Positions 5,112 through 28,691 of a DNA stretch of 35,250 nucleotides are shown here, one piece after another. Position 1 is the first letter of the stretch. Each line of letters begins with the position of its first letter. The DNA is from Gemmatimonadota bacterium (lineage in GTDB: Bacteria; Gemmatimonadota; Gemmatimonadetes; Gemmatimonadales; GWC2-71-9). The notes under the pieces are model-generated. The model had not been told where the DNA came from, made no database searches, and saw only the letters and a list, made by a program, of their open reading frames with translations. The position numbers and the translations under genes were made by a program. Location of the stretch: contig JACQVB010000161.1 of NCBI GenBank assembly GCA_016209985.1, positions 1 through 35,250 of the forward strand, read 5' to 3'.

Positions 5112-5216
5112 GTGCATCAGCCGTCAGCCATCAGCCGTCAGTCAATCGCTGCAGGCCGTAAACTCGGAGAACGTCCCGGCATTGAGGCTGATGGCTGATG
5201 GCTCATGGCTGACGGC

Positions 5217-7371: not shown

Positions 7372-7869
7372 ATGCGCCGCCCCTCCTTGATGCTTCTGGC
7401 CCTGTTCGTGGCCTCCTGCGGAAAAAGCTCGGAAAACAGCGCCGTCTGCGGCTTTGCCAGCATCGCCGGAGCCACCATGGTGCTGCAATACCTGCCCAAC
7501 GAACACGCCCGGCTCGCCGCCCCGCCCGGTGGCCTGCCATCGTCACTTCCGGCACGGGTCGTGGGATACGGCACCTCTCACGTGCTGGTCACCGATAGCC
7601 CCGACGGGCTGGTCCTCGGCTACGAAGGCGCCGGCTTCCCGGCCACTCCCGGATTCGGCCTGCTGCTGGTGGACGATTCCTCTGAAGTGGTCCGCGGCGT
7701 GATGATCTACGACAAGGAAGTACAGGAAAACGTGCCCAAGATCGGCACCATCTCGGGAAGTACGTCGACCATCCCGTTGTATGGGCTACGGGTCAACTGG
7801 CCCTCGGTGAGCGACGTGCGGTGCCCCCTGTTCGCCGCGCCCGCGAGCGACAGCGCCGACAACCAATAA
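7372..7869 (+). CDS. Small lipoprotein of unknown function
   Basis: 165 residues starting at ATG 7372. The first 15 residues are a type II signal peptide with lipobox VASC, so Cys16 would be lipidated and the protein anchored in a membrane. The mature part is mixed alpha/beta with many glycines and no motif I recognise. Two further cysteines (in SAVCGF and VRCPLF) could form a disulfide. The C-terminus is polar and low in complexity. The longer frame from 7309 has no reason to be used because it would precede the signal peptide with charged residues. Divergent from the FmdB-type gene, convergent with the unknown gene ending at 7985. Confidence 0.7.
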   Translation: MRRPSLMLLALFVASCGKSSENSAVCGFASIAGATMVLQYLPNEHARLAAPPGGLPSSLPARVVGYGTSHVLVTDSPDGLVLGYEGAGFPATPGFGLLLVDDSSEVVRGVMIYDKEVQENVPKIGTISGSTSTIPLYGLRVNWPSVSDVRCPLFAAPASDSADNQ

Positions 7870-7984
7870 CGGCATCCCTTCCCCCCTCCGCCCGACCCCA
7901 CGGCACGACGGCAGACCTCGGACGCAATGGCCGTCGTTTCTCGCGCCCACTGGCCCTCTGCCGTTATGCCGTTATGCCGTATTA
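7865..7984. repeat. Inverted octamer/heptad repeat R2 (convergent gap)
   Basis: The right arm (7960-7984) has tandem 8-mers GCCGTTAT, and the left end AATAACGGCAT (7865-7875), which includes the TAA stop of the lipoprotein gene, is its complement. Nested inside is a perfect 8-base inverted repeat, ACGACGGC (7905-7912) with GCCGTCGT (7930-7937). The element fills the gap between two convergent genes. Confidence 0.65.
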
Positions 7985-15746: not shown

Positions 15747-16531
15747 TTCACCTCGCCATCCTTTTCCTGTGCGCCATGGGAGCGCTGACTCCGGCGGTGG
15801 GGCAGGACAGCGCGACATCCCCTCCCACCGCGGGTACGCCGTTCCCACCGGGCGAGCGGCTCAAGTACGAGGTGCGCTGGGGCGTGGTGACCCTCGGGAC
15901 CGCGGAGATGCGGGTGGTGGGTATCGACACGATTCGCGGCACGCCGGCAGCGCACATTCAGTTCAGGATCGTGGGATCGAATTACCTGTACCGGATGGAC
16001 AACCGGATGGATTCCTGGATCGCCCTGTCGGACACCACCTCGAGGCGCTTTACCCAGGACTTCCAGGAAAACAGGAAGGAACGCCACGCCTGGTACGACA
16101 TCTTTCCCGATTCCGGATACTATCGGGAGAAGGGCGTCGATGGCCCGCGGCCGAGCGTCAAGAACCCGCTCGATGATGCCGCGTTCTTCTACTTCGTGCG
16201 GACCATGGGGCTCGAGCCCGGCCGCAAATACGAGATCAACCGGTATTTCCGGCCGGACCGCAACCCCGTGATCCTCGATGTCCTGTCGCGAGATACCCTG
16301 GACGTTCCGGCCGGGAAGTTCCCGTCCATCGTGCTCCAACCGATTATCAAGGGCCAGGGAATACTGAAGGAAACGTCCGACGCGCGGATGTGGCTTTCCG
16401 ACGATGACCGCCACCTCATGGTGCAGCTCAAATCCAGGTTCCCGGTAGTCGGCTACCTCACCATGCGCCTCATCCGCATCGAGAGCGGCCCCAAAACTTC
16501 CAAATCAGACAAAGTGAGAAGTGAGATGTGA
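15743..16531 (+). CDS. Secreted DUF3108-type protein
   Basis: 262 residues with a signal peptide (MIHLAILFLCAMGALTPAVG, cleavage near residue 20). PPGERLKYEVRWGVVTLGTA is the typical beginning of DUF3108 domains, which continue as a curved beta-sheet to about residue 250 (YFRPDRNPV, LDVPAGKFPSIVLQP and the KSRFPVVGYLTMRL end). The family is periplasmic and structurally related to lipoprotein-carrier-type folds; function is not established. ATG 15743 overlaps the glycosyltransferase stop (ATGA). The last about ten residues (SKSDKVRSEM) are read from the left arm of repeat R3, which also supplies the stop codon. Confidence 0.8.
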   Translation: MIHLAILFLCAMGALTPAVGQDSATSPPTAGTPFPPGERLKYEVRWGVVTLGTAEMRVVGIDTIRGTPAAHIQFRIVGSNYLYRMDNRMDSWIALSDTTSRRFTQDFQENRKERHAWYDIFPDSGYYREKGVDGPRPSVKNPLDDAAFFYFVRTMGLEPGRKYEINRYFRPDRNPVILDVLSRDTLDVPAGKFPSIVLQPIIKGQGILKETSDARMWLSDDDRHLMVQLKSRFPVVGYLTMRLIRIESGPKTSKSDKVRSEM

Positions 16532-16594
16532 CAAATGAGAAGTACTCCAGACCACCTTCCTGCTCACTTCTCACTTCTCACTTTCTCACTTGCA
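16509..16594. repeat. Inverted heptad repeat R3 (convergent gap)
   Basis: The left arm (16509-16543) carries tandem 7-mers around GAAGTGA, and the right arm (16561-16594) carries their complement, TCACTTC units in a row. Loop about 17 bases. Pairing is imperfect but extends over about 30 bases. The left arm includes the end and stop codon of the DUF3108 gene, and the element occupies the convergent gap to the small membrane protein. Confidence 0.7.
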
Positions 16595-20143: not shown

Positions 20144-20190
20144 CACGGCACCGACGGTGTGCCGTCGTGCCGTCGTGCCGTCGTGCCGTC
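20144..20190. repeat. Inverted octamer repeat R4 between E1 alpha and E1 beta
   Basis: The right arm (20161-20190) is almost four tandem copies of GCCGTCGT. The left arm CACGGCACCGACGG (20144-20157) pairs with it, with one bulged base, across a very short loop. The resulting GC-rich hairpin ends 18 bases before the GTG start of E1 beta. Without a T run it is more likely an RNA-stability or attenuation element than a full terminator inside this operon. Confidence 0.7.
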
Positions 20191-21195: not shown

Positions 21196-22521
21196 ATGGC
21201 CACCAAGGTCCTGATGGAAGCCCTCTCGCCCACGATGACCGAAGGCAAGGTCATGAAGTGGCTCAAGCATGAGGGCGATCAGGTCCACGCGGGTGACACA
21301 CTGGCGGAGGTCGAGACCGATAAGGCCATCATGGAGTTGAGCGCCCGCGGCGATGGGGTGCTGCGCCAGGTGGTGGTGCCTGAAGGCTCGACCGTCGAAG
21401 TCGGCAAGCTGGTCGCGGTGATTGCCCGACCGGAGGAGGATATTTCCGGCATCGCCGCTGCCACGGGCGGTCAGAAACCGAGGCCCCAGCCGGCGGAGCC
21501 CAAATCACCCGAGCCCGCCGAGGCTCCCGCCGCGGAGGCGCCCGGGCATCGCGACACCGCCGCGCGACAACTCGCGCCGAAAGCTCCTCCGGACACCCCC
21601 AAGCCGGAAAAGCCCCAGCCCGAACCTCAACGGCCGGTTCAACCAGGAGAACGGATCAAGGCTTCCCCGCTGGCCCGCAAGGTGGCTCGGGACCGCGGCG
21701 TCGACCTCGCCGTCATGTCTGGTACGGGTCCTGGCGGCAGAATCGTGAAACGGGACCTGGAGGGCGCTACGGCGGCGCCACTCACCACGCACCCTTCGGC
21801 TCCGCTCAGGGCAGGCCACGCACCACGCACCGCACCCGGCGCCGTTCGCGACGTTCCGCTGAGTCAGATTCGAAAGACCATTGCCAAGCGGTTGGTCCAG
21901 TCGCTCGCGCCCATTCCGCATTTCTTTCTCACTTCCGAGATCGACATGGAGCGCGCCTGGGACGCCCGGGAAGCACTCAATGCGCTCGGCGATGAGCAGC
22001 GAATCTCCTTCAACGACATCGTGGTGAAGGCGGTGGCATTGGCCCTGGTACAGCATCCGGAGTGCAATGCCTGGTGGCAGGACGACCACATCCGGTATTT
22101 CTCGGACGTGCACCTCGGCATGGCGGTCGCCGTCGAGGAGGGCTTGATCACCCCGGTCATCCGGAACGCCGAGGCGAAATCGTTGCGGGAAATCGCGATC
22201 GAGTCGCGCGACCTCGTGGAACGCGCCCGCGCCCGCAAACTCAAGCCGGAAGAGTACACCGGCAGCACCTTCTCGGTTTCCAATCTCGGCATGTTCGATA
22301 TCGAGCAGTTCACCGCCGTGATCAATCCTCCGGAAGCCGGAATCCTGGCCGTCGGCACCATGGCGCCACGGCCGGTCGCACACGACGGAGAGCTCGTGCT
22401 GCGCCGCCGCATGCGGGTCACGATGAGCTGCGATCATCGGGTAATCGATGGGGCCACCGGGGCGAGATTTCTGCAGACCCTGAAGAGGATGCTGGAGAAT
22501 CCGCTGGCAATGGTGTGGTGA
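21196..22521 (+). CDS. pdhC: Pyruvate dehydrogenase E2 (dihydrolipoamide acetyltransferase)
   Basis: 441 residues. One lipoyl domain (1-80) with lipoyl-lysine K43 in ETDKA, a Pro/Ala/Glu linker (about 95-150), a subunit-binding domain (155-192, ASPLARKVARDRGVDL...GRIVKRDL), a second linker and the catalytic domain (about 215-441) with active-site H414 and D418 in DHRVIDG. It transfers acetyl groups from lipoamide to CoA. The second linker (residues about 196-214) is encoded by a heptad repeat element with a core seen on the other strand as GAGCGGAGCCGAAGG, so a mobile-looking repeat has been taken into a disordered part of the protein. It begins 4 bases after E1 beta. Confidence 0.96.
   Translation: MATKVLMEALSPTMTEGKVMKWLKHEGDQVHAGDTLAEVETDKAIMELSARGDGVLRQVVVPEGSTVEVGKLVAVIARPEEDISGIAAATGGQKPRPQPAEPKSPEPAEAPAAEAPGHRDTAARQLAPKAPPDTPKPEKPQPEPQRPVQPGERIKASPLARKVARDRGVDLAVMSGTGPGGRIVKRDLEGATAAPLTTHPSAPLRAGHAPRTAPGAVRDVPLSQIRKTIAKRLVQSLAPIPHFFLTSEIDMERAWDAREALNALGDEQRISFNDIVVKAVALALVQHPECNAWWQDDHIRYFSDVHLGMAVAVEEGLITPVIRNAEAKSLREIAIESRDLVERARARKLKPEEYTGSTFSVSNLGMFDIEQFTAVINPPEAGILAVGTMAPRPVAHDGELVLRRRMRVTMSCDHRVIDGATGARFLQTLKRMLENPLAMVW
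21783..21830. repeat. Heptad repeat element R5 inside the E2 linker
   Basis: A 24-base core (21792-21815) lies between tandem 7-mers CCACGCA (one copy at 21785, two at 21816-21829), giving a 10-base direct repeat CACCACGCAC at 21783-21792 and 21821-21830. The core read on the minus strand encodes ACPERSRR, a peptide string I know from many environmental genomes as the by-product of a dispersed repeat. It is in frame and free of stops in the E2 gene. Confidence 0.6.
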
Positions 22522-22529
22522 GAAAAGGC

Positions 22530-22610
22530 GTGAAGAGTGGAGAGTGCAGAGGGAAGGGTACGACGGGCTCAGTATGCTTTACTCTTCCCTCTTCACGCTT
22601 CACTCTTCAC
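22530..22610. repeat. Inverted heptad repeat R6 between E2 and E3
   Basis: Two 31-base arms, 22530-22560 and 22580-22610, are complementary at 27 of 31 positions. Each arm is four 7-mers of the GTGAAGA type plus three bases. The loop is 19 bases. It starts 9 bases after the E2 stop. A long hairpin at this place would terminate transcription partly or protect the 3' end of the E1-E2 message from decay. Confidence 0.8.
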
Positions 22611-22652
22611 CGGGTTGTGAACAACCGTCTCTGACGCGAGCCGACTGAGTCT

Positions 22653-24044
22653 ATGGCAAACTTCGATGTGATTGTGGTTGGTGGCGGACCCGGCGGCTAC
22701 GTCTGCGCCATCCGCGCCGCACAGCTCGGCCTCAACACCGCGGTCGTCGAGCGAGACAAGCTGGGGGGGGTATGCGTCAATGTCGGGTGCATCCCCAGCA
22801 AGGCGCTGCTCCACAGCGCCTACGTCGCCAACCTGGTGCGGCACGACGCCAAGGATTTCGGCGTGGAACCGGGAACCGTGACCCTCAACTTCGGCACCGC
22901 GATCAAGCATTCGCGCCGGGTGAGCGAGCAGAATTCCAAGGGCGTCGAATTCCTGATGAAGAAGCACAAGGTCACCGTCATCAAGGGCGAAGGCGTCCTG
23001 GCGGCCGGCCGGAAGGTGAAGGTCGGCAACGAGACCCACGCCGCCGCCAAGGCGGTGGTGCTGGCGACCGGCACCCGAGTCAAGGGGATTCCCCAGATCG
23101 GTCTCGAGATCAACCAGACGACCGTCATCTCATCCGACGAAGCCTTGTTCCTCGAAACCGTGCCCAAGACGCTCGCCATCGTAGGCGCCGGCGCTGTCGG
23201 TACCGAGTTCGCCGATATCTTCAGCGCCTTCGGCACCAAGGTCACCCTGATCGAAGTGTTGCCCCGGATGCTCCCGATCGAAGATGCCGAATCCTCCGCC
23301 ACCATCGCCCGGGTCTTTAAGAAGCGAGGTATCGACGTGCTCGCTGGCGTCAAAGTCAAGGCGGCCACCGTGGGCAAGAACGGGGTGATCCTGGAGCTCG
23401 AGGTCGGCGGAAACGCCCAGAAGCTCGAGGTCGAAAAGGTCTTGATGGCGGCCGGACGCGCGCTCAACACGCAGAACGTCGGGCTGGAAGCTGCCGGTGT
23501 GACGCTGGACGAGCGGGGATTCGTGAAAGTCGACCAGCACCTGCGGACCACGGCCGAGGGGGTCTATTGCATCGGCGATATTGCCGGCCCGCCCATGCTG
23601 GCGCACAAGGGAAGCCGGGAGGGTGTCCACGTGGCCGAGGTCATCGCTGGGCAAAAGCCCCATCCCATCCGGTACGACAACATTCCCAGCGTCACCTACT
23701 GCCATCCGGAAGTGGCAAGCATCGGCCTCACCGAAGACCAGTGCAAGGAGCAGAAGCTCGAGTACGTCGTGGGCCGGTTCAATCTGAGCGCCAATGGACG
23801 GGCGCGTGCGGCCAACGAGACCGAAGGATTCGTCAAGATCATTCGCGACCAGAAGTACGGGGAGATCCTCGGGGCCCATATCGTCGCGTCGCACGCCAGC
23901 GAAATGATCCACGAGCTGGCCGTCGCGCGGGAGAACGAATACACCGTCGAGGAAATCGAGCTGGCGGTCCATGCCCACCCCACCCTCTCGGAAGCGGTGG
24001 CGGAAGCGGCTTTGGACGCAATGGGAAGGGTCATCCATGGGTAG
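22653..24044 (+). CDS. lpdA: Dihydrolipoamide dehydrogenase (E3)
   Basis: 463 residues. FAD motif VVGGGPGGYVCAIRAA, redox-active disulfide C41-C46 in GGVCVNVGCIPSK, NAD motif VGAGAVGTEFADIFSAFG, second FAD motif CIGDIAGPPMLAHKG and the catalytic His-Glu pair H442/E447 in HPTLSE. It reoxidises dihydrolipoamide on E2 with NAD+. Its 131-base leader holds repeat R6 and only a weak ribosome-binding site. Position after E2 completes the PDH complex. Confidence 0.97.
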   Translation: MANFDVIVVGGGPGGYVCAIRAAQLGLNTAVVERDKLGGVCVNVGCIPSKALLHSAYVANLVRHDAKDFGVEPGTVTLNFGTAIKHSRRVSEQNSKGVEFLMKKHKVTVIKGEGVLAAGRKVKVGNETHAAAKAVVLATGTRVKGIPQIGLEINQTTVISSDEALFLETVPKTLAIVGAGAVGTEFADIFSAFGTKVTLIEVLPRMLPIEDAESSATIARVFKKRGIDVLAGVKVKAATVGKNGVILELEVGGNAQKLEVEKVLMAAGRALNTQNVGLEAAGVTLDERGFVKVDQHLRTTAEGVYCIGDIAGPPMLAHKGSREGVHVAEVIAGQKPHPIRYDNIPSVTYCHPEVASIGLTEDQCKEQKLEYVVGRFNLSANGRARAANETEGFVKIIRDQKYGEILGAHIVASHASEMIHELAVARENEYTVEEIELAVHAHPTLSEAVAEAALDAMGRVIHG

Positions 24045-27296: not shown

Positions 27297-27307
27297 GCCC
27301 CAAATAT

Positions 27308-27365
27308 AGGGAAGAGGGAGGAGGGAAGAGGGAAGCTCCTTACTCTTCCCTCTTCCCTCTTCCCT
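27308..27365. repeat. Inverted heptad repeat R7 between amtB and the M20 gene
   Basis: The left arm is four 7-mers of AGGGAAG (27308-27335, one with a G change) and the right arm is three exact CTTCCCT copies (27345-27365). The 9-base loop is CTCCTTACT. 20 of 21 positions pair in the stem. It sits between two genes read in the same direction, 3' of the ammonium channel and just before the M20 start. Confidence 0.8.
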
Positions 27366-27368
27366 GCT

Positions 27369-28691
27369 TCAGGCGCTAGCTGGGAGCGGCTCTTTGCTGG
27401 GTTCGGGGTCGTGCGCGAGTATCACGCTGTCGCCCAGCGCCAGACCGGATCCGGCCAGGCTTCCGAGCTCTCCACCGAAGTACGCTTCCTCCCCGTGCTC
27501 CGACAGGTCGAGACCGGTGAGCTCATCGTGCACGGTCGCCCGCGCGCCCAGGGTCGCCTGCACCAACGACAGGAGGCCGAAGGTGCCCAGACCGGCGAAC
27601 GCCGCAGCGACGCAGACGGCAAGCGCCTGCACGCCGAGCTGGCTCCAGTTGCCGGCGAGGACACCATCGGCCCCTGCCGGATTCCATACCTTCGCTGCAA
27701 ACACGCCTGTGAGCAGCGCGCCGCTGACGCCGGCCAGGCCGTGGCAGGAAAAGACGTCCAGCGAATCGTCCAGCGCGGTCCGCGAGCGGAGTTGCATGGC
27801 CGTGTAGCTGATGACCGCGCAGATCGCCCCGATGGCAATCGCCGCCACCGGGCCCACGAATCCGGCCGCGGGTGTGATGCCTACCAGGCCGACCACCGCC
27901 CCGGTCGCCGCCCCCACCGCCGTCACTTTCCCCGTTCTCCGCACATCCATCAACGCCCACGCGACCAGCGCGGTGGCGGCCGCCGTATTGGTGTTGGTGA
28001 ACGCGAGCGCGGCGAGACCGTTGGCGGCGAGAGCTGATCCGGCATTGAACCCAAACCACCCGAACCAGAGCAGCCCCGCCCCGAGTATGACCAACGGCAC
28101 ATTGTGCGGCACCAGCGCGGAGCGCCGATAATCGTTCCGGGCGCCAAGCATCCGAGCCGCCACCAGGGCCGAAACGCCGGCGCTGATATGCACCACGGTT
28201 CCGCCCGCGAAGTCGAGGGCGCCACGCGTTGCGAGCCAGCCACCCTGGCCCCAGACCCAACGGGCGAGCGGATCGTAGATCAACGTGGCCCAGAGCACGA
28301 TGAACGCCGCGTAGGCGCGGAAGCGCATCCGCTCGACAATGGCGCCGGAGATGAGCGCCGGCGTGATGATGGCGAACATGCCCTGGAACATCACGTGCGC
28401 CTGCTGGGGGATGGTGGAGCCGTAGGCCGGATGCGGCTCGAGCCCAATCCCTTTCAGGCCCGCCCACGCCAGGCCCCCGATCCAGGAGGAACCGGGCGCG
28501 AAGGCCAGCGAGTAGCCCGCCAGCACCCATTGCACGCCGACCAGGCCCAGCGCCACCACACTCATCATCATGGTGTTGAGCGCGCTCTTGGGACGCACCA
28601 GCCCCCCGTAGAAGAATGCCAGCCCTACGGTCATGAGCAGCACCAGGGCGCTGGACATGAGGACCCAGGCGGTATCGCCGGCCGAAATCAC
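27369..28691 (-). CDS. amtB: Ammonium channel
   Basis: 440 residues, about eleven membrane helices. AmtB features: FFYGGLVRPKSALNTMMMS, QGMFAIITPALISGAIVER (outer gate aromatic), DFAGGTVVHISAG with the binding aspartate and first pore histidine, and the second histidine in SCHGLAG (usually VHG(V/I)GG). It begins directly, without the signal-like first helix of E. coli AmtB. Start ATG 28691 overlaps the PII stop by 4 bases, the classic glnK-amtB pair. The C-terminal cytoplasmic tail (DELTGLDLSEHGEEAY) is the canonical PII-docking region. Confidence 0.96.
   Translation of the reverse strand: MISAGDTAWVLMSSALVLLMTVGLAFFYGGLVRPKSALNTMMMSVVALGLVGVQWVLAGYSLAFAPGSSWIGGLAWAGLKGIGLEPHPAYGSTIPQQAHVMFQGMFAIITPALISGAIVERMRFRAYAAFIVLWATLIYDPLARWVWGQGGWLATRGALDFAGGTVVHISAGVSALVAARMLGARNDYRRSALVPHNVPLVILGAGLLWFGWFGFNAGSALAANGLAALAFTNTNTAAATALVAWALMDVRRTGKVTAVGAATGAVVGLVGITPAAGFVGPVAAIAIGAICAVISYTAMQLRSRTALDDSLDVFSCHGLAGVSGALLTGVFAAKVWNPAGADGVLAGNWSQLGVQALAVCVAAAFAGLGTFGLLSLVQATLGARATVHDELTGLDLSEHGEEAYFGGELGSLAGSGLALGDSVILAHDPEPSKEPLPASA

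Follow-up and report, generated by a model that had tools for sequence, protein, structure and literature searches.

The closest described systems are found in Xanthomonas and in filamentous cyanobacteria. According to the sections of Rehm et al. (2015; PMC4692102) on which we draw, the GGGAATC heptads of Xanthomonas are intergenic and transcribed, and on the coding strand they lie close to stop codons or overlap them, with 83% of the sites common to two species, and convergent inverted pairs that are able to form stem-loops number 70 in Xcc and 75 in Xac. The STRR heptads of filamentous cyanobacteria, 7 bp in length, form intergenic hairpins, and the part of that study used here (PMC2670836) suggests transcript stabilization, translation coupling, and the ending of transcription as their roles.

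The inverted repeat considered herein, R6, lies in a window of 35,250 nucleotides (the whole stretch of DNA that was analyzed), which is contig C117 of a Gemmatimonadales MAG, termed G000 (4.64 Mb, 289 contigs, 95% complete). The initial annotation had placed R6 between E2 and E3 of the pdh operon, and these gene identities are borne out by NCBIfam, which recognizes pyruvate dehydrogenase E1 alpha, E1 beta, E2, and E3, as well as lipA and lipB, in the window. The PDH E2 gene (21196–22521, plus strand, TIGR01349) is 5' of R6 and the gene for E3, dihydrolipoyl dehydrogenase (22653–24044, plus strand, TIGR01350), is 3' of it, with the stem starting 8 nt past the E2 stop codon. On the plus strand, the G- and purine-rich 5' arm (22530–22560) reads GTGAAGA, GTGGAGA, GTGCAGA, GGGAAGG, and GTA, and is separated by a loop of 19 nt (22561–22579) from the 3' arm (22580–22610), the complement of which reads GTGAAGA, GTGAAGC, GTGAAGA, GGGAAGA, and GTA. 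When both arms were re-read, they and their heptad blocks proved to be exactly as previously listed, with 27 Watson-Crick pairs of 31, units of seven bases, and the same block order in both arms, and two of the four mismatches are, from the letters, potential G-U pairs in RNA. The predicted fold of the E2–E3 gap (22522–22652) has an energy of −61.6 kcal/mol (z −5.1), and none of 200 shuffles was equally good. A search of the whole window against Rfam gave no match at the gathering score.

The window contains four inverted-repeat sites compared with none in 20 Markov shuffles (24-nt arms, at least 20 pairs, loop of up to 120), and one site appeared in a single shuffle when the loop limit was 150. 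All four are composed of 7-base units. The other three are an AAGTGAG-flavor hairpin (16508–16587, plus strand, fold z −5.2) over the stop codon of a gene ending at 16531, an AGGGAAG-flavor hairpin (27307–27366, minus strand, fold z −4.9) at the stop codon of a minus-strand gene (27369–28691), and a CAGCCRT-flavor hairpin (5117–5212, strand not assigned, fold z −6.0) that fills the gap between two convergent genes. Across 30 arbitrary stretches of G000 (387,422 bases; 24-nt arms, at least 20 pairs, loops of up to 150), 41 inverted repeats were found, 33 of them built of repeats, with none in one shuffle; the period is 7 in 23 of the 33 and 8, 9, 10, or 12 in the others. Looser arms (20 nt, 17 pairs) gave 36 repeat-built hairpins outside genes in 422,672 bases of G000, window included, from which we extrapolate about 400 in the whole genome if the remainder is alike, and hundreds are probable. 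Each of 11 other genomes has 0 to 3 such hairpins outside genes (40–100 kb sampled per genome). The units in G000 come in many flavors, including GTGAAGA, AGGGAAG, CAGCCRT, GTGCGTG, GTGCGGA, GGTGTCA, AAGTGAG, one 8-mer, a 9-mer, and a 10-mer. The idea that 7-, 8-, and 10-base units serve to place stop codons in all three frames was rejected because the second and third 5' units of R6 lack TGA and the GTGCGTG and AATGCGG units lack a stop.

G outnumbers C in the 5' arm of 26 of these 36 hairpins, and the CAGCCRT and CCTCTCCC flavors have the reverse bias. A G-rich arm on the coding strand and a similar position recall the G-quadruplex-forming heptads proposed for Xanthomonas and Nostoc, but a quadruplex requires four GGG runs, R6 has two in its 5' arm and one in its 3' arm, and some flavors are wholly without GGG, so that we regard quadruplex formation as extremely unlikely to be what these units are for.

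Other repeats were noted in the window and in G000. In the E1 alpha–E1 beta gap (20144–20190), (GTGCCGTC)x4 is found with a shorter inverted partner directly upstream, which may form a second repeat-built stem in the pdh operon. At 7959–7980, 3' of a gene ending at 7869, there are 8-mer tandem repeats TGCCGTTA. Heptad arrays are also found at the ends of contigs C5, C64, C70, and C279 of G000, where they probably represent assembly break points.

R6 is one copy of a family. With 501 bases around R6 as the query, 75 matching pieces were recovered in G000, a number that includes the window's own and counts each arm and strand of one place separately. The exact 17-base core of the family, GTGAAGAGGGAAGAGTA, which in R6 lies within the 3' arm (minus strand, 22580–22596), has 21 exact copies in G000 with none for the reversed control, and it is absent from the 297 other genomes of the phylum that were searched. 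For the GTGCGTG family, 55 exact 21-mers are found in G000 and one each in three of 40 other genomes (the reversed control is identical to the pattern and is therefore uninformative), while the CAGCCAT family has 14 copies in G000, five in G020, one in G006, and none in 38 others. Judged by these exact matches, both families are near-private, like that of R6. The family copies consist of three GTNNAGA units followed by GGGAAGA-GTA as the inner end beside the loop. The block order kept between the two arms had been taken to mean that an inversion arose at this site after the array had formed or that one arm was copied from the other, but the same order recurs in other family copies of the genome and is thus a property of the family, so that R6 was more likely copied in as a whole hairpin than inverted on the spot.

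A rival origin would be that of REP/BIME elements, which are likewise dispersed intergenic palindromes with proposed 3'-end roles in the material consulted (PMC3733652), and which would here be mobilized by a RAYT-type tyrosine transposase. The 95% complete MAG does contain a Y1_Tnp domain match. However, it is a single match in a 134-aa open frame, with no evident RAYT, the R6 stem begins GTGA and has no GTAG tag, its stem is built of tandem units, unlike REP/BIME, and the units of the genome are many and unrelated. We therefore consider this origin very unlikely.

Comparison of the E2–E3 gap in relatives, a check named in the initial annotation, gave a divided answer. Ranked by E3, the top named relatives are MAGs that bear the labels Gemmatimonadetes, Gemmatimonadota, or Gemmatimonadales, together with Bacterium HR33, and the nearest row in the E3 tree is the isolate Baikal-deep-G155. 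In the named loci, a repeat-type hairpin is present in 20 of 54 E2–E3 gaps (one of them, in L052, is a doubtful repeat) versus 22 of 393 other co-directional gaps, with a p value of 1e-9 that is too small because the loci are related; if gaps shorter than 40 nt are excluded, the values are 20 of 41 versus 22 of 179. Elsewhere in the operon such hairpins occur in 6/43 gaps between E1b and E2, 1/37 between E1a and E1b, 1/26 between lipA and E1a, 0/33 between E3 and x, and 4/27 between E3 and lipB. The E2–E3 gap is thus a recurrent hairpin site, but it is occupied by 14 different units, and in the one same-genus relative it is only 4 nt long with no hairpin. The recurrence fits a role in setting the output of E2 and E3.

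The E3 tree comprises 69 rows, which are the window and 68 of 80 named loci, the other 12 being left out where E2 was not directly upstream or E3 was cut; its bootstrap support is not settled. A two-armed repeat hairpin is found in 24 of the 69 rows, in 14 unit classes, and with the hairpin labels assigned by hand from the gap letters, the tree requires at least 15 changes of presence or absence and 17 changes of unit. Close relatives differ in both respects. L072 and L079 (E3 96.5% identical) have AACGCGG and AATGCGG units and L095 and L096 (94.2%) have GTTGACG and GATGGCG units, respectively, while L067 has no hairpin and its sister L069 (96.7%) has one of ATTGCGG, and L070 has none where L078 has one. 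In the last two pairs, an entire block next to the stop codon was gained or lost. At two gene ends of the same-genus relative L039 (10960–11050 and 258–322), judged by eye, unrelated stems are found where G000 has heptad hairpins. Some gaps contain other structures. Those of L104, L105, L109, L110, L113, L114, and L118 have C-rich tandem heptads (for example, CCTGACC and CATCTCC) with an unclear second arm, and this type is in the tree branch with Gemmatimonadaceae; those of L050, L087, and L097 have long palindromes that are not built of short repeats.

The hairpins are concentrated at gene ends, and specifically near stop codons. In the unbiased set, the distance from stop to stem is 12 nt or less in 26 of 40 cases and that from start to stem is 12 nt or less in 6 of 30, based on gene calls from a purpose-written gene finder for which stops are exact and starts are approximate. 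Of the gaps that measure 40 nt or more, a repeat hairpin is present in 31 of 155 that are co-directional or convergent versus 3 of 45 that are divergent (p 0.04), and in most convergent cases it abuts both stops. Co-directional hairpins are closer to the stop than to the next start in 17 of 23 cases in the unbiased set (p 0.02), in 12 of 12 in stretches chosen for R6 matches, in 20 of 20 in the named relatives, in the one case in G028, and not in the one case in G001. This mostly holds even where the gap is roomy (7 of 9 in the unbiased set and all four of the picked set). Among gene ends that lack repeats, a fold z below −2.5 is reached in only 15 of 99 in G000, in 1 of 28, 0 of 15, and 0 of 13 in relatives, and in 6 of 27 in G001. 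The hairpin signal at ordinary gene ends is therefore weak, and a hairpin is not a general 3'-end need in this group; a requirement for one at every gene end is not supported.

Where a hairpin is shared, it is well conserved. In three hand-picked pairs of loci, the gaps are identical at 90/94, 109/118, and 110/127 positions (87–96%), while the fourfold sites of E2 and E3 in the same pairs are identical at 139/279, 153/299, and 174/300 (50–58%), and since the former are far above the latter, the shared E2–E3 hairpins appear constrained and look to be under selection, although re-copying from other family members would have the same effect. L074 and L072, a fourth pair with a unit in common, have 80/92 identical positions with 10 gap columns. 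The compensatory changes in the stem that the initial annotation had named as a check did not emerge. In nine in-register copies of the R6 flavor (from 33 family rows), which are few for a covariation test, the arms of the same hairpin pair at 27.2 of 31 positions and arms taken from different hairpins at 27.4 of 31. In the three orthologous pairs, no base pair is altered on both sides and still paired; single-side changes kept the pair in nine cases and broke it in six, and the one base pair altered on both sides is broken. Mixed sets do give more matched positions than permutation (24.4 vs 22.6 for the 33 family rows and 24.3 vs 22.7 for 20 GTG-type rows), but flavors and registers are mixed in both sets, and the excess vanishes with one flavor.

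These data also bear on the view that R6 is a selfish or passive repeat, spread by copying and retained just past stop codons only because insertions at other places do harm, with no function in the operon. Private multi-copy families, the large difference in number between G000 and the 11 other genomes, the rapid gain and loss between sister species seen in the E3 tree, and the hairpin-free E2–E3 gap of the same-genus relative would all be expected of such a repeat. It would not explain why the three shared hairpins are conserved so much better than fourfold sites, why one operon gap is struck repeatedly by unrelated units, or why the hairpin is mostly at the stop even where there is ample room. 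We consider a purely selfish repeat possible but rather unlikely.

A second view is that R6 is a terminator or attenuator proper, in which the stem releases RNA polymerase after E2, so that the transcript is shorter and ends with E2, and less E3 is made. The stems are very stable, with a median of −47 kcal/mol for 61 oriented hairpins, they have the stop-codon position, including contact with both stops in most convergent cases, and T is raised behind them (0.29 vs 0.19). However, the R6 stem is followed by CGGGTTGTGA, which has no U-tract of an intrinsic terminator, and a run of four T within 12 nt of the stem is found in only 5 of the 61. There is no terminator-like match at R6, and around the operon there are one terminator-like and zero promoter-like matches, which is not above shuffles. 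U-tract terminators are found at only 3 of 201 gene ends of G000, and the presence of Rho is indicated by two matches to the RNA-binding domain of this protein, so that termination in this genome is probably mostly Rho-dependent. Such hairpins are, moreover, also found inside operons. Given the lack of a U-tract and of a terminator match, and the weak signal at ordinary gene ends, R6 is not a canonical terminator, and we think it unlikely, to the extent of roughly one chance in a few, that it acts as a terminator in the strict sense.

We now put forward a mechanism for R6 in which the repeat family and the operon both have a part. G000 carries several families of dispersed inverted tandem-heptad hairpins, each with different units, and R6 is one copy of such a lineage-private family. 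The hairpins are gained or lost as whole blocks at gene 3' ends, near the stop codon. In the pdh transcript, R6 is predicted to fold into a long stem right behind E2, with the purine-rich arm leading, and we propose that the stem-loop blocks 3' exonucleases and/or slows read-through in the operon message. The yields of E2 and E3 would thereby be partly uncoupled, without a U-tract and independently of the exact sequence. Most simply, a long stem directly behind E2 would guard the 3' end of the upstream message and hinder read-through. On balance we lean, by a modest degree, toward this reading of R6 as a 3'-end stem-loop of a copied family that partly separates the expression of E2 from that of E3. 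If it is correct, a stem-loop that recurs in place and form, but differs in its letters between sister species, is present in many operons of one phylum. It then becomes possible to ask how short intergenic hairpins are selected and copied, a question that goes back to the discovery of the STRR and REP repeats. R6 itself would be a testable point in the pdh operon that could set E2 against E3.

A more far-reaching form of the proposal, which we regard as speculative and quite unlikely, is that the hairpins are a class that lacks its own gene, is installed at stop codons, and is under selection for fold over letters, with each lineage rewriting the heptad in both arms at once and re-installing or replacing the hairpin at the same gaps. 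Were this so, the hairpins would be a mobile 3'-end element of disposable sequence.

Searches of an open-access library gave no description of such hairpins for Gemmatimonadota. It should be noted that inverted heptads at stop codons are already known from Xanthomonas, at least from those sections of PMC4692102 considered here. Like the heptads described there, R6 has two inverted arms built of 7-base units in tandem, has many dispersed copies, and has its stem near the stop of the gene that precedes it. In contrast to Xanthomonas, which in the same sections has one unit type, GGGNATC, with G-tracts for quadruplexes, the R6 unit is GTGAAGA, and here many flavors are found per genome that are lineage-private and are swapped between sister species at one site. 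The STRR heptads are unrelated in sequence, and the portion of PMC2670836 cited describes them as capable of forming hairpins and not as paired inverted arrays at stop codons genome-wide. The P6b stem of the Nostoc tRNA-Leu intron resembles R6, as its degenerate heptads pair into one long hairpin, but in the account given in the relevant part of PMC3488679 it is a single intron site, unlike the dispersed family of R6. The new part is the many flavors that coexist in one genome, their privacy to a lineage, and their fast replacement at one operon gap.
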